Positions 28,172-31,861 of a stretch of 64,000 bases of DNA are shown here, one piece after another. The position numbers were made by a program, and so were the translations under genes. Origin of the DNA: Variovorax sp. S12S4 (GTDB lineage: Bacteria > Pseudomonadota > Gammaproteobacteria > Burkholderiales > Burkholderiaceae_C); assembly GCF_023195515.1 (NCBI RefSeq), contig NZ_JALPKR020000002.1, positions 2,829,001 through 2,893,000 of the forward strand, in the 5' to 3' direction. Numbering within the stretch: position 1 is the first letter of the stretch; the number at the start of each line of letters is the position of its first letter. The notes below the pieces were generated by a model. It was not told where the DNA came from. It saw only the letters and a list, made by a program, of their open reading frames with translations, and searched no databases.

Positions 28172-28417
28172 ATGGGACAACCTCAACCAAGAACGCAAAG
28201 TGCAAGGCAAAGGGTGGCCTTCCATCTACGGGTCATCCGCGCAGAACGCCGCATCTCCCAGGAACAGCTTGCGGAAGCTGCAGGGCTTCATAGGACCTTC
28301 GTGGGATCAGTCGAGAGAGAAGAGAGGAATATCTCCATCGACAACCTTGAGCGCCTTGCGTACGCCTTGGACGTTGACGTCTCGTTTCTGGTTTCGCCGG
28401 TGATCACTCGCTCGTAG
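28172..28417 (+). CDS. XRE-family DNA-binding protein, 81 aa
   Basis: An 81-residue helix-turn-helix protein: FHLRVIRAERRISQEQLAEA, then AGLHRTFVGSVEREERNISI and NLERLAYALDVDVSFLV. This is the single-domain form typical of phage-like repressors and restriction-modification controller proteins. The surrounding 27.5-28.7 kb is AT-richer and contains an IS3 relic, so it is likely part of a decayed mobile region. A longer frame from 27933 overlaps in another phase and is not supported. Confidence 0.82.
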   Translation: MGQPQPRTQSARQRVAFHLRVIRAERRISQEQLAEAAGLHRTFVGSVEREERNISIDNLERLAYALDVDVSFLVSPVITRS

Positions 28418-28521
28418 CGATCTTCATTCCCTCGGTGATCGTGATACCGCCACAACCTCGCGAATAGGGACGGAGTTCCGCGCTCAAACGGTCGCACACA
28501 TGCAGATCGGGGACTACCACG

Positions 28522-28644
28522 ATCAAGCAGTTCATCAAAGAAGTTGATTTCTGCATCCACTGGTACAACGAGAAGCGGATCAAGATCTCCCTTGGCTCCC
28601 TTAGTCCCATCGAATATCGAGAAAGTCTTGGACTTGCGACATAA
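28522..28644 (+). mobile_element. IS3-family transposase C-terminal relic
   Basis: 41 codons read IKQFIKEVDFCIHWYNEKRI, then KISLGSLSPIEYRESLGLAT and stop. The WYNEKRI...LGSLSPIEYR pattern is the C-terminal end of the DDE integrase (OrfB) of IS3-family elements, after the catalytic glutamate. The following bases (28645-28680) may hold the right inverted repeat. The rest of the element is gone. Confidence 0.78.
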
Positions 28645-28828
28645 AACCAGTCCAAGTTTCTATCCGCACCCCTAGGGCCGCGAAATTCAACGTTTTGAGT
28701 GCACGCTCGATAACATGGCGTGTGAACGCACGGAGCGGATTGTGCAGGTCGCGTGAGCGCTCCGACCGCCGCAAAGAGTTAGGAACACCAGCTGACTCGC
28801 CTACCGAGGGAAAAAACCGTTCTAACCG

Positions 28829-29314
28829 TTAGGATGGGCCCAGAAGACTGGGGACGTACGGCAGGTAGACCAGCTTCATGCCGGCTTCCTCGGGCAGGCG
28901 GTCTGCTTTTTCCGAGTTGCAGGCGCGGCAGGCCGCGACCAGGTTCATCCAGTCCCAGCCGCCGCCGCGGCTGATGGGAAGAATGTGCTCGCACGTGAGG
29001 TCTTGTTCGCGAAAGTGCTGCGCGCAGTAGGCGCAGGTGAAACGGTCGCGCACGAAGAGCTTGCGCCGGCTGAAGGCCGGCGTCTGGTCGAACAGGTTCA
29101 CCTTCGCGCAGCCCTTGAGCGCGATGATCGGCGAAATCTCGAGCCGCGACTCCACGCCGCGCGCCACGTTGAAGCCCCCACGCATCGTCGCCAGCGGACC
29201 AGCGCCGTCTTCCCATACAACGGAGTCCGTCGCATAGTGAGCAGCGGCGTGCTCAAGCGAGATCCAGGCCTGCGGCGTTCCCTGGATGTCGAGCTGAAGA
29301 ACTTGGGGTTTCAT
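28829..29314 (-). CDS. HNH endonuclease
   Basis: A 161-residue protein with a C-terminal HNH domain: RKLFVRDRFTCAYCAQHF near residue 85 (first CxxC), LTCEHILPISRGGGWDWMNL (His, Asn) and VAACRACNSEKADR (second CxxC, His/Asn position). The N-terminal 80 residues are of unknown fold (MKPQVLQLDIQGTPQAWISL). AAAGGAGG precedes the ATG. It lies downstream of the tRNA array on the same strand and may be expressed from it. HNH proteins are nicking or cutting nucleases, often in mobile elements. Confidence 0.88.
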   Translation of the reverse strand: MKPQVLQLDIQGTPQAWISLEHAAAHYATDSVVWEDGAGPLATMRGGFNVARGVESRLEISPIIALKGCAKVNLFDQTPAFSRRKLFVRDRFTCAYCAQHFREQDLTCEHILPISRGGGWDWMNLVAACRACNSEKADRLPEEAGMKLVYLPYVPSLLGPS

Positions 29315-29373: not shown

Positions 29374-29450
29374 TGGCTCCTCGACCCGGGTTCGAACCAG
29401 GGACCTTCGCATTAACAGTGCGACGCTGCTACCAGCTGAGCTACCGAGGA
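29374..29450 (-). tRNA. tRNA-Asn (GTT)
   Basis: A cloverleaf can be folded with 5' TCCTCGGTAGCTCAG, anticodon loop CTGTTAA on a CGCA/TGCG stem, T-loop GGTTCGAACCC and encoded CCA. It is the last tRNA of the array, 60 bp before the HNH gene start. Confidence 0.88.
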
Positions 29451-29496
29451 AAAAAGAATGTGTTCGATCGAGTAGGCGGCGGCCATTGCCGCGGCT

Positions 29497-29697
29497 TTAC
29501 CACTCGCCGATTTCGCGCACGCGCTGGTCGAAGTCGAGCTTCTCGAAGCGCTCGCGTGCGCGCTCGGCCTCCCGCTGGCGCTGCCCGGTCATCGCACCGA
29601 AGCTGCGGGTGACCGCCTGCACAAGCGCGTTGCGAGGCCTGGGCTCGGACACCAAGATGCTGTTCGCCGGCCGGCGGTGGCTGGTGGTGAGTCGCAT
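29497..29697 (-). CDS. Small basic protein inside tRNA array, 66 aa
   Basis: The frame MRLTTSHRRPANSILVSEPR, then NALVQAVTRSFGAMTGQRQR and ARERFEKLDFDQRVREIGEW, has a perfect AGGAGG site 7 bp upstream. The protein is strongly basic and helical, as expected of an RNA- or DNA-binding peptide. It lies between the Arg and Asn tRNA genes on the same strand. No family is recognised. Confidence 0.6.
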   Translation of the reverse strand: MRLTTSHRRPANSILVSEPRPRNALVQAVTRSFGAMTGQRQREAERARERFEKLDFDQRVREIGEW

Positions 29698-29793
29698 GGA
29701 TGTCCTCCTGTGGGTCGCGCTGGGCGGTGGTGAATGATCTGTATATCGGCGGGTGCCGTGAAATGTTGAGCGGCTGCTCGCACTCCAGGTGTA

Positions 29794-29871
29794 TGGCCCC
29801 ACGCACACGATTCGAACGTGCAACCCCCGGCTTCGTAGGCCGGTGCTCTGATCCAGTTGAGCTAACGCGGG
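29794..29871 (-). tRNA. tRNA-Arg (ACG)
   Basis: 5' CCCGCGTTAGCTCAACTGG, anticodon stem CCGGC/GCCGG with loop CTACGAA, T-loop GTTCGAATC, encoded CCA. The acceptor stem pairs with G-U wobbles. Confidence 0.87.
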
Positions 29872-29927
29872 AAGAAAAATGGATGGATGATGTCGCCCGA
29901 CGCGAGGCGAGTCGAGCGCTGAGAAGA

Positions 29928-30003
29928 TGGCGATCCGTAGGGGAGTCGAACCCCTGGCTTCCTCCTAGACAGGGAGGCACTCTGGCCACTGAGTTAACGA
30001 ATC
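29928..30003 (-). tRNA. tRNA-Asp (GTC)
   Basis: 5' GATTCGTTAACTCAGTGG, anticodon stem CCTCC/GGAGG with loop CTGTCTA, T-arm GGGGTTCGACTCCCC, encoded CCA. The acceptor stem GATTCGT pairs with ACGGATC. The body is unlike typical bacterial tRNA-Asp. Confidence 0.82.
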
Positions 30004-30019
30004 AAAGTAGTAATAAATG

Positions 30020-30112
30020 TGCTGGGCATGGACCTGGCGAGGGCTTCTTACGAGCCGCTTGCGTGGCCACGGCTTAGCAAGCCGCTGCCTTGGACCTCTC
30101 GGCCAATGCTCC
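30020..30112 (-). tRNA. tRNA-Ser (GCT)-like, degenerate 3' half
   Basis: 5' GGAGCATTGGCCGAGAGG and anticodon stem CGGCT/AGCCG around GCT strongly resemble tRNA-Ser(GCT). A variable arm GGCT/AGCC follows. The T-arm lacks GTTCGAA, the acceptor 3' strand pairs imperfectly and CCA is not encoded. It is probably a decayed or unusual gene. Confidence 0.5.
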
Positions 30113-30204
30113 AATGGTGTCCGGTTACGAGTTCCGGCGCCTCCCAATCGTTGAGGCCGGTTTCCACGAGAGGACGACGCGAATCGTCCGGTCTCGCTCT
30201 TGTG

Positions 30205-30280
30205 TGGTCGGGGCGGCAGAAATCGAATCTGCGACCTGATGCTCCCAAAGCAACCGCGCTGCCAACTGCGCTACGCCCCG
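30205..30280 (-). tRNA. tRNA-Pro (TGG)
   Basis: 5' CGGGGCGTAGCGCAGTTGG, anticodon loop TTTGGGA, T-arm GCAGATTCGATTTCTGC, encoded CCA. The anticodon stem GTTGC/GCATC has one T-T mismatch. Confidence 0.85.
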
Positions 30281-30297
30281 AATTTCTGGTTGTGAAT

Positions 30298-30375
30298 TGG
30301 CACGCCGTGGTCGATTCGAACGACCGATTGCCTGAGTCAAAGTCAGGTGCCTTGGTCCAGCTAGGCGAACGGCGC
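30298..30375 (-). tRNA. tRNA-Gln (TTG)
   Basis: 5' GCGCCGTTCGCCTAGCTGG, anticodon stem CCTGA/TCAGG with loop CTTTGAC, T-arm GGTCGTTCGAATCGACC, encoded CCA. Confidence 0.87.
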
Positions 30376-30392
30376 GTAAGGTTGTCGAACGA

Positions 30393-30469
30393 TGGAGTCG
30401 TATGCGGGATTCGAACCCGCGTCTACAAGGATGAAAACCTTGTGTCCTAAGCCACTAGACGAATACGAC
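30393..30469 (-). tRNA. tRNA-Glu (TTC)
   Basis: 5' GTCGTATTCGTCTAGTGG, anticodon stem CAAGG/CCTTG with loop TTTTCAT, T-arm GCGGGTTCGAATCCCGC, acceptor GTCGTAT/ATACGAC, encoded CCA. Confidence 0.88.
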
Positions 30470-30486
30470 GTGAATCTGCGAAGGAA

Positions 30487-30545
30487 GCCTGCACTCCGGA
30501 TCGAACGAAGAAGCTCTCTTTAAAGGTGGGCTGATCTATGCGGGC
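30487..30545 (-). pseudogene. tRNA-like relic
   Basis: GCCCGCA at the 5' end can pair with TGCAGGC (one mismatch), and a T-arm CTTCG-TTCGATC-CGGAG is present. The D-arm and anticodon stem cannot be formed, and the total length is only about 59 nt. It is interpreted as a truncated tRNA gene. Confidence 0.35.
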
Positions 30546-30557
30546 GAACTGACTGGT

Positions 30558-30642
30558 TGGTGCCCCAAGAGAGCCTCGAACTCTCATGACTTTCGTCCCC
30601 GGCTTCTGAGGCCGGTGCGTCTTCCAATTCCGCCATCGGGGC
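30558..30642 (-). tRNA. tRNA-Leu (CAG)
   Basis: 5' GCCCCGATGGCGGAATTGG, anticodon stem CCGGC/GCCGG with loop CTCAGAA, a short variable arm, T-arm GAGAGTTCGAGGCTCTC, encoded CCA. It is class II, about 85 nt. Confidence 0.88.
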
Positions 30643-30789
30643 ATTCCATTTCGGTTGTGTCTTCACGCGATTCGAGCGCTTGCGCGCCCACGTCGGCATC
30701 GCTGCACATGGTTGGGTCCAGACCGTGCACATCCCTCCAGGCCGCCGGCGCGGTTGCCCTCTGGAGGTGCTGCAAAGGCACACCCGAAA

Positions 30790-30866
30790 TGGAGCAGCAG
30801 GAGGGCTTCGATCCCTCGGCCTCAACGTTGGCGACGTTGCGCTCTACCTGGCTGAGCTACGGCTGC
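30790..30866 (-). tRNA. tRNA-Gly (GCC)
   Basis: 5' GCAGCCGTAGCTCAGCCAGG, anticodon stem CAACG/CGTTG with loop TCGCCAA, T-arm GAGGGATCGAAGCCCTC, encoded CCA. The acceptor has one C-T mismatch. It is the first tRNA of the array. Confidence 0.85.
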
Positions 30867-31058
30867 ATGTTCTTGCGGATCGTCGGCCCACCAGTGAGGG
30901 GCGCGACCCGCGGCAAATTTTTAAAGAGCATTCGCCCGCGCAGTTCAGCGGGTGAGTTCACGGCAGCGCGATCACTGCAATGGCGGCGGGCAACGGGTGC
31001 CGTTCGCGGCTTGCGTTGCGAATCGGAGTCCGCAACATGAGGTGAGTAAAAAAACAAA
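30867..31058. promoter_or_regulatory. Probable promoter region of tRNA array
   Basis: The 192 bp between the first tRNA and the terminator at 31059 must hold the promoter of the minus-strand tRNA transcript. No clear -35/-10 pair is identifiable with confidence. Confidence 0.35.
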
Positions 31059-31088
31059 AGGCCCGGATCCATTTCGGAATCCGGGCCT
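31059..31088 (-). terminator. Intrinsic terminator (minus strand)
   Basis: Arms AGGCCCGGAT (31059-31068) and ATCCGGGCCT (31079-31088) form a perfect 10-bp stem. Read on the minus strand it is followed by TTTTGTTTTTTT. It ends the transcript of the small gene at 31117-31302 and insulates the tRNA array. Confidence 0.85.
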
Positions 31089-31116: not shown

Positions 31117-31302
31117 CTACGCGCTACCTCCACCCGGGTGCGGCTGATCCTCGTACTGCTGTCCGAGCCACAAGGTGGCCGGCGCTGCGGGACGGGAGTT
31201 CAGCTGCGAATGCACGTTGGGCGCCGCCAGACCGCGACCGCCGCGAAACGAGACGCGCACGAACGTCCGGCCCGATGCCGGTCGGTTGTTCAATGAGGTC
31301 AT
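31117..31302 (-). CDS. Small hypothetical protein, 61 aa
   Basis: The frame MTSLNNRPASGRTFVRVSFR, then GLAAPNVHSQLNSRPAAPAT, ends 29 bp before a strong intrinsic terminator on the same strand, which supports it being transcribed. The start is chosen as the first ATG not overlapping the divergent regulator region; the ribosome site is weak. The protein is basic and of unknown function. Confidence 0.45.
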   Translation of the reverse strand: MTSLNNRPASGRTFVRVSFRGGRGLAAPNVHSQLNSRPAAPATLWLGQQYEDQPHPGGGSA

Positions 31303-31410
31303 GTTTGCTTTCACGATGGTTTCCAGTGCTTGGCGAAGAAGTTCTCGATGATTCGAAGTTGGTTGTTGCGGATGAAACGGGGACGAAGCATTTCGTCGAT
31401 GGGATGTACT

Positions 31411-31425
31411 GTAAACTCGGTTTAC
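31411..31425. promoter_or_regulatory. 15-bp palindrome upstream of HTH gene
   Basis: GTAAACTCGGTTTAC is a 6-3-6 perfect inverted repeat. It overlaps a plausible -10 region (TTTACTAAT) 50 bp before the HTH gene at 31475. It is probably the operator of that regulator. Confidence 0.5.
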
Positions 31426-31474: not shown

Positions 31475-31861
31475 ATGTCTCTTCCAGCCATTCGCCGCAA
31501 CAACGTCCTGCTTCTGTTCGGTGAGTTCGTTGCGGAGCATGCGGCCAACGGGGCGGAGCCACTCGGCCTGGCGGCCAGGTTTGCACAGAAGCTGCAAATC
31601 TCGGCGAGCATGTGGAGCCAGATCAAGAAGGGCCGGGTGATCTCCGACAAGCTGGCTCGGCAGATCGAGTCCCACTGCGGTAAGGCTCCACTCTGGCTTG
31701 ATGCGCCGCAAGCCGCCGAGCCTTTGCCCGACCTGGGTGAAGAGCGGTTCGTGGAACTGGCGCGCCAGGCCTACAGGGCGCAGAACGCGCGTGGCAAGCG
31801 CGCACTGCGCACCATCTTGCTGGAGCATGCGAACCCACCACAAGCCCAAAGCCCGCGGTAG
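31475..31861 (+). CDS. Helix-turn-helix regulator, 128 aa
   Basis: An N-terminal DNA-binding region is seen in PLGLAARFAQKLQISASMWS, then QIKKGRVISDKLARQIESHC, a lambda-repressor-like helix-turn-helix with the recognition helix around SASMWSQIKKGR. The C-terminal 55 residues are helical (ELARQAYRAQNARGKRALRT). A palindrome lies just upstream, fitting autoregulation. It is divergent from the small gene and tRNA array and may regulate that transcription unit. Confidence 0.75.
   Translation: MSLPAIRRNNVLLLFGEFVAEHAANGAEPLGLAARFAQKLQISASMWSQIKKGRVISDKLARQIESHCGKAPLWLDAPQAAEPLPDLGEERFVELARQAYRAQNARGKRALRTILLEHANPPQAQSPR

Follow-up and report, generated by a model that had tools for sequence, protein, structure and literature searches.

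Dense, mixed arrays of tRNA genes are known from chromosomes, plasmids and phages of Mycobacterium. In the excerpts of the literature on which our comparisons draw, an array unit has been defined by at least 20 tRNA genes at a density of at least 2 tRNAs per kb (Tran 2016, quoted in PMC5966550), and a structured RNA of ~430 nt was found in ~81% of the Mycobacterium arrays (Morgado and Vicente 2018, PMC5966550). The tRNA array unit of linear giant plasmids of Mycobacterium avium has been termed a putative antidefence system (PMC12803027), and phage tRNAs that evade tRNA-cleaving defences show changes in the anticodon loop (van den Berg 2023, PMC10264068). GOLLD and ROOL, which are Rfam families of phages and prophages, are structured RNAs of unknown function that lie near tRNA islands (PMC12286853). 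In Anabaena sp. PCC 7120, a megaplasmid carries a trn operon of 26 tRNAs, which a repressor acting over the -10 box keeps silent and which translational stress induces (PMC10272220). Here we describe a tRNA array at positions 29374-30866 of a 64,000-nucleotide stretch of the Variovorax sp. S12S4 chromosome (contig NZ_JALPKR020000002.1, positions 2,829,001 to 2,893,000; hereafter the window), together with its control region and two conserved RNA elements, RNA-1 and RNA-2. From its sequence, we assign the array to a family of putatively regulated tRNA-array elements of the Burkholderiales, of which it is a partly decayed chromosomal member. The conserved control region and the two conserved RNAs, which have no match in Rfam, are a larger finding than the tRNA genes themselves.

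The locus resembles each of these systems in part. Its eight tRNA genes in 1.5 kb lie above the density of 2 per kb and below the number of 20, which is reached by relatives on plasmids RA8 (23 tRNAs), WDL1 (27) and PM1 (27); the window therefore holds a reduced derivative of an array unit rather than a full one. The parts that define the unit in Burkholderiales, namely a divergent helix-turn-helix (HTH) gene, a leader and RNA-1 upstream of the tRNAs and an HNH endonuclease gene downstream, are all present, the last of them truncated. In contrast to the Mycobacterium units, which belong to another phylum, the RNAs here measure 147 and 89 nt and lack Rfam matches, and a leader open reading frame (ORF), a terminator and a boxA are present, none of which appears in the excerpted account of the Mycobacterium arrays (PMC5966550). 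The plasmid arrays of M. avium are alike by description alone (PMC12803027). RNA-1 and RNA-2 recall GOLLD and ROOL in their position near tRNA genes, but they are much smaller (GOLLD is often >800 nt; PMC12286853), and the Rfam models of GOLLD and ROOL gave no match in the window or in four relatives, nor any at E 10 in RNA-1. As with the phage tRNAs of PMC10264068, the tRNAs are extra and some differ in the anticodon loop, loop differences alone being seen here. The Anabaena trn operon, likewise a plasmid-borne spare tRNA operon with a repressor site over the -10 box, is the nearest tested precedent for a repressed set of spare tRNAs, and neither a leader ORF nor an RNA-1 appears in the excerpted account of it (PMC10272220). 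A search of a limited literature collection returned nothing on boxA or antitermination of tRNA operons or on leader peptides of tRNA arrays, no account of Variovorax tRNA arrays or Comamonadaceae tRNA gene clusters, and no title on structured RNA in tRNA arrays of these organisms.

ARAGORN recovered eight intact tRNA genes, all on the minus strand, and Rfam at gathering scores recovered the identical eight (48.6-62.9 bits against a cut-off of 29) and nothing else in the 64-kb window, rRNA included. In the direction of transcription these are tRNA-Gly(GCC) (30790-30866), tRNA-Leu(CAG) (30558-30642), tRNA-Glu(TTC) (30393-30469), tRNA-Gln(TTG) (30298-30375), tRNA-Pro(TGG) (30205-30280), tRNA-Asp(GTC) (29928-30003), tRNA-Arg(ACG) (29794-29871) and tRNA-Asn(GTT) (29374-29450). 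Two relics on the same strand complete the array. A tRNA-Ser(GCT) relic at 30023-30112 reached only 20.1 bits in Rfam and aligned to the Ser(GCT) genes of related arrays with a score of 61, against 19 or less for 20 letter-shuffled copies, and a tRNA-Thr(TGT) relic at 30470-30557 scored 29 against 17.5 for shuffled copies. The original prediction, made from the letters alone, was of nine or more tRNA genes with several mismatched stems, compactly arranged on one strand outside any rRNA operon. Its compactness, strandedness and distance from rRNA are borne out, the count is amended to eight intact genes with Ser a relic and Thr a second one, and the non-standard stem pairs, marked in Gly, Asn and Pro, are few. 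The divergent HTH gene, the leader and both conserved RNAs had been overlooked.

The genome (5.97 Mb, two contigs) contains 53 tRNA genes, and a core set of 44 distinct tRNAs was assembled from its other loci. All eight array specificities are also present in this core set, so the array does not hold the only genomic copies of its tRNAs and a core locus is ruled out. Array tRNAs share 64-77% identity (Asn 88%) with the nearest tRNA for the same amino acid in their own genome and 94-100% with their best array relatives in other species. Two anticodon loops are unusual: tRNA-Gly has C33 instead of U33, and tRNA-Asp has U37 instead of a purine. No core tRNA lacks U33 or has a pyrimidine at 37 (0/44 each). 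Among 24 array loci scanned, several of them closely related and one (L294) covered in part, Asp with a pyrimidine at 37 occurs in 17, including Methylibium, Polaromonas and Hydrogenophaga, and Gly with C33 in 11; the array Asp gene of L064 is normal at 37, and the other six loci have no pyrimidine-37 Asp. By these comparisons, the array represents a supplementary tRNA set of apparently separate lineage.

Similar DNA was found on plasmids of Variovorax (RA8, SPNA7 and WDL1), Methylibium petroleiphilum PM1 and Polaromonas P1-6, the SPNA7 and P1-6 arrays holding 10 and 19 tRNAs. This agrees with the earlier view that such a mixed array is of mobile-element type, its relatives being on large plasmids. 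The genes shared with the three Variovorax plasmids keep the order of the window with other genes interspersed; among these three, tRNA-Gly(GCC) was called only in SPNA7, from whose calls Gln is absent. Gene order in PM1 and P1-6 is unlike that of the window. The RA8 array includes a phage-type RNA ligase (Pfam E 4e-28; phrog_24030 E 2e-134), and the array region of PM1 has AlkB and HD genes. The N-terminal stretch of the RA8 ligase (L037:13739-14800) is HNH-like.

The HNH endonuclease gene of the unit (28829-29314, minus strand; HNH_5 E 7e-17) aligns to residues 1-157 of the 187-aa RA8 protein at 85% identity and has lost its C-terminus, the final ~30 residues being missing. Its domain weakly resembles those of IscB and Cas9d, at scores far below cut-offs. 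When the RA8 protein was searched against genome contigs and the best 80 of 320 relatives were kept, ARAGORN found 4-25 tRNAs on the contigs of Variovorax, Polaromonas, Hydrogenophaga and Rubrivivax, 1-3 on seven from Acidovorax, 2-3 on those of Rhodoferax and Ideonella and none on L062. More distant matches have few tRNAs or none, except for two Kangiellaceae-type contigs (18 and 14) and a planctomycete contig (L127; 16). Some HNH gene of the superfamily is present in 97 of 100 genomes of the genus, mostly as a near-universal paralogue of ~52% identity (in the genome itself at G000:C2:3203164); the array type, at 85% identity or more, occurs in at least 14 of the 100, own genome included. A class at 72-76% identity lies beside Arg(ACG) and His(GTG) in 16 of 17 loci (L228-L244), one of the 16 keeping Pro in addition, and L234 carries Pro and His. 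Phages too combine HNH genes with tRNA arrays, since 27 of 80 viral loci selected by HNH (L135-L214, some of them near-duplicates) contain 15-34 tRNA genes.

RNA-1 (30646-30792, minus strand; 147 nt) is a structured RNA with a four-way junction that shares its first CCA with the end of tRNA-Gly. In an alignment of 30 sequences, 98.7% of cells pair, and compensatory changes on both sides were found in 15 of 38 pairs, compared with 5.2 in shuffles and 1-5 for slid structures; the covariation score was 0.200 vs 0.089, and since the members of this set are related the shuffles give no probability. When more distant members were used (27 sequences), 20 of 38 pairs showed compensatory changes against 8.9 in shuffles, in an alignment that was fitted to the model and thus leans towards it. 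Taken by itself, the window copy folds with a modest thermodynamic z-score of -2.2. In Rfam, nothing matched RNA-1 with an E value of 10 or less.

RNA-1 was found in 53 of 100 genomes of the genus and in 44 of 299 of the family, spread over 27 of 141 genera. A first model found it in 8 of 399 genomes of the order, and in the class it was found in 1 of 369, the window's own, under strict filters that weak matches may escape. None of the 39 viral loci searched, out of 80 fetched, had a match, and one weak match lies on a Nevskia contig without tRNAs (L081, E 0.017). We fetched 40 of the 51 family matches, hereafter the family loci, and scored tRNAs with ARAGORN on the same strand within 4 kb, relics uncounted. 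At least one downstream tRNA was present in 25 of the 40 and none in 15; an HNH gene was present in 21. The HTH gene is kept in 13 of the 15 tRNA-free loci and the palindrome described below in 12, so that the non-tRNA core can outlast the tRNA genes in relatives.

RNA-2 (30116-30204, minus strand; ~89 nt, window copy E 1.2e-22) is a conserved RNA element between tRNA-Pro and the Ser relic, with three predicted hairpins: a variable one at the 5' end and two small ones in a nearly invariant 3' part. No Rfam match covers the element in the window at E 5, and around the copy in L323 all Rfam matches besides tRNAs are far below cut-offs. Its structure is less certain than that of RNA-1, as compensatory changes were found in 2 of 9 predicted pairs, the 5' hairpin aligns badly, and eight single sequences fold with z-scores of -0.3 to -2.1. 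RNA-2 occurs in 78 of 299 family genomes and lies within 2.5 kb of 40 of the 51 RNA-1 matches; the genome itself has no second copy with up to 3 mismatches. A further 62 matches lie elsewhere, in 58 genomes: seven at 45-91 bits, which are perhaps more units, and 55 (in 53 of the 299 genomes) at 23-44 bits. We read nine homologues that lie away from RNA-1 (L348-L356), none of which had an Rfam match at gathering scores. One (L355) has a unit-type terminator just upstream; the other eight share the 3' part, most with a terminator-like hairpin close behind it, as judged by eye. Weak homologues of this kind, L348 for example, are possibly an undescribed chromosomal small RNA.

Upstream of the tRNAs lies the control region, beginning with a divergent HTH gene at 31475-31861 on the plus strand. 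Its 128-aa product is a putative repressor (phrog_12107, 'transcriptional repressor', E 4.4e-9) that matched no Pfam family. The AlphaFold model (mean pLDDT 79) has helices at 32-39, 44-52 and 58-67, and its top Foldseek match, a weak one (E 0.018), is a temperate-phage repressor. In 36 of the 40 family loci a homologue is encoded upstream on the other strand, and in 34 its near end is at most 1.2 kb away. The gene here is divergent from and adjacent to its array, unlike that of the Anabaena TrcR, a ribbon-helix-helix protein whose gene is not known to adjoin the trn operon. An operator-like palindrome, GTAAACCGAGTTTAC, at 31411-31425 adjoins the putative -10 box (TACAGT) of the array promoter. 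The only exact genome copy of GTAAACNNNGTTTAC is this palindrome, and the only copy with one mismatch precedes a second HTH paralogue, at which both leader and RNA-1 have been lost. That paralogue (L296, G000:C2:3466442), which keeps the palindrome without leader, RNA-1 or tRNAs, is a relic unit. The pattern GTAAA-N5/6-TTTAC is found upstream in 30 of the 40 family loci and matched 33 times in the family loci (330 kb) against 0.15 in shuffled copies. In L322, L325 and L330 the HTH gene lies 1-3 kb further off and has a second palindrome within ~10 bases of the end of its ORF. HTH protein and operator thus appear to go together, a putative link drawn from their positions.

Between the palindrome and the array, on the minus strand, is a small leader ORF (31117-31314; 65 codons from an inferred GTG start) that closes with PHPGGGSA-stop and whose ends are conserved across genera. 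In 11 related sequences, whose pairs are not independent, the synonymous share of single changes was 44% in frame and 26% and 15% in the other frames. In the gap between leader and array, an intrinsic-terminator-like hairpin on the minus strand (31056-31087; GGCCCGG...CCGGGCC and a T run) is also found in Methylibium, Polaromonas, Acidovorax, Hydrogenophaga and Rubrivivax, and its pattern occurs in 24 of the 40 family loci. It is followed on the same strand by a small conserved hairpin, GCAGTGATCGCGCTGC (30963-30978), boxB-like as judged by eye and with variants in other genera, and by a boxA-like rrn antitermination motif, CTCTTTAAAAATT (30916-30928), within one mismatch of TTCTTTAAAAATT. The genome has four sites within one mismatch of TTCTTTAAAAATT: two in the rrn operon as read from sequence, that of the array, and one other. 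Among the family loci, the boxA pattern was present in 13 of 25 with tRNAs and 0 of 15 without (Fisher p 0.0005). In L281 and L283-L286, which have no same-strand tRNAs, the terminator starts 38-47 bases before RNA-1; this leaves little room for a promoter, so RNA-1 is probably made there by terminator read-through.

Beside tRNA-Asn, a small ORF of 66 aa (29497-29697, minus strand) is kept in the RA8 and WDL1 plasmid arrays. The name 'short-chain dehydrogenase' that it bears there is unsupported by its length, and family searches gave no match above chance. Three further Variovorax species (L249, L250 and L251; L250 is the same contig as L061) carry the unit next to the same xanthine-dehydrogenase-like genes, in syntenic DNA that is 92-94% identical, with five tRNAs each. 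Homology to these loci stops at 28848, inside the HNH gene and near an IS3 relic. The synteny, together with this break and the HNH truncation, argues that the unit is old at its site and that one end was damaged later. Simple vertical descent is made less likely by L255, in which it is the HNH side that borders the xanthine-dehydrogenase-like genes, and by the different neighbours of other loci. The array had earlier been taken as probably acquired because of a nearby HNH nuclease, XRE gene and IS3 relic. All three are real: the XRE gene is at 28172-28417 and the IS3 relic, recognised by DNA similarity to IS3 transposase genes, at ~28512-28689. The HNH gene belongs to the unit and the other two do not; the XRE gene had no match at E 1e-12 in the 28 loci compared, and blastn found no DNA aligning to the IS3 relic in the three syntenic loci. 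We therefore reject a recent acquisition marked by these two: synteny with the three other species extends to the unit and to neither of them. The XRE protein closely resembles restriction-modification control proteins (PADLOC, E 1e-19), and a scan of ten proteins around its gene revealed no restriction enzyme.

The anatomy of the unit, its conservation, its kinship with plasmid arrays, the divergence of its tRNAs from the core and the two conserved RNAs were observed directly; its function we can only model. Our preferred hypothesis, on which our judgement is evenly balanced, is that the unit is an emergency set of tRNAs, under repression and attenuation, that guards against tRNA damage. The divergent HTH protein would occupy the GTAAAC-N3-GTTTAC operator and hold the promoter off. 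On relief of this repression, a transcript would first run through the small leader ORF and then into the terminator, where read-through would be set by translation of the leader (attenuation). BoxA, where present, would bring in the rrn antitermination machinery, allowing a long untranslated precursor containing RNA-1, the tRNAs and RNA-2 to be finished. The tRNAs, some with altered anticodon loops, would then take the place of those host tRNAs that tRNA-cleaving toxins or defences have destroyed, or may relieve translational stress otherwise. Plasmid arrays would protect both the element and its host, and the set on the window chromosome would be eroding.

Several observations point towards this hypothesis. 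The plasmid relatives, with 10-27 tRNAs, have the same flanking genes; the tRNAs are redundant with the core and closer to the arrays of other species; anticodon-loop bases absent from the core recur in array Asp and Gly; and a phage-type RNA ligase is encoded within the RA8 array. Read-through is favoured by the short gap between terminator and RNA-1 in L281 and L283-L286. Repression is suggested by the fact that both palindromes of the genome precede HTH paralogues and that displaced HTH genes have a second palindrome. Antitermination is suggested by a boxA like that of the rrn operon, confined to tRNA-bearing family loci. The Anabaena trn operon provides a precedent, as far as the excerpted account of it goes (PMC10272220).

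Other observations weigh against the hypothesis. The terminator pattern is missing from 16 of the 40 family loci and boxA from 27, and in the genome itself the reversed control pattern gave 5 and 5 matches vs 2 and 2. Translation of the leader is weakly supported by the codon changes. With ~190 bases between terminator and tRNA-Gly, the window may have a promoter downstream of the terminator. The loss of Ser and Thr, the C33 of Gly and the broken HNH gene could mean that the window array no longer works. Finally, the 15 tRNA-free loci with RNA-1 are unexplained by tRNA supply alone. These loci lend some weight to an alternative that we consider possible, with a probability well short of even, in which selection acts on the conserved RNAs as the core. 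The repressor, leader, RNA-1 and RNA-2 would then make up an element for regulation or stability that works through RNA, and the tRNAs would be exchangeable cargo that uses its promoter. The HTH gene and operator kept at most tRNA-free loci would fit such an element, as would the closeness of RNA-2 to most RNA-1 matches and the weaker RNA-2 homologues elsewhere in 53 genomes. However, RNA-1 was seen solely in loci of this type, and tRNA-free loci are possibly late stages of decay.

Decay may also be all there is to see in the window lineage, if an old array from a plasmid or phage entered by a single integration and has since lost its function. The two tRNA relics, the shortened HNH gene and the IS3 relic are what such a remnant would show, and the eight tRNAs here and five in the syntenic relatives compare with up to 27 on plasmids. 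We nevertheless think it unlikely, because neutral decay would not leave surviving tRNAs with 94-100% identity to their counterparts in other species, nor a leader, RNA-1, operator and HTH gene that are intact and conserved. That the extra tRNAs serve to boost translation of codons rare in the host is highly improbable, as all eight anticodons are in the core already.

The emergency-set hypothesis can be widened, at a confidence that we would call speculative, into one in which RNA-1, RNA-2, the repressor, operator, leader peptide and terminator form a self-contained RNA switch that senses failure of translation, with tRNA arrays as its commonest cargo. Stalling on the leader would bypass the terminator and release nuclease-resistant tRNAs, RNA-2 would imitate a free-standing small RNA of the host, and the function of RNA-1 would outlive the tRNAs.

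Catalogues of tRNA arrays have existed for years, and among the cases that we found the mode of control is known for hardly any. In the family described here, a control region and two RNAs are conserved, the covariation of RNA-1 is strong, and its spread over 27 of 141 sampled genera includes soil bacteria with complete genomes, so that how a mobile array is switched on, and what the structured RNAs inside it do, can now be tested directly. Units with the same leader form a graded series, from 27 tRNAs down to none, in which nature has recorded which parts of the unit are selected.

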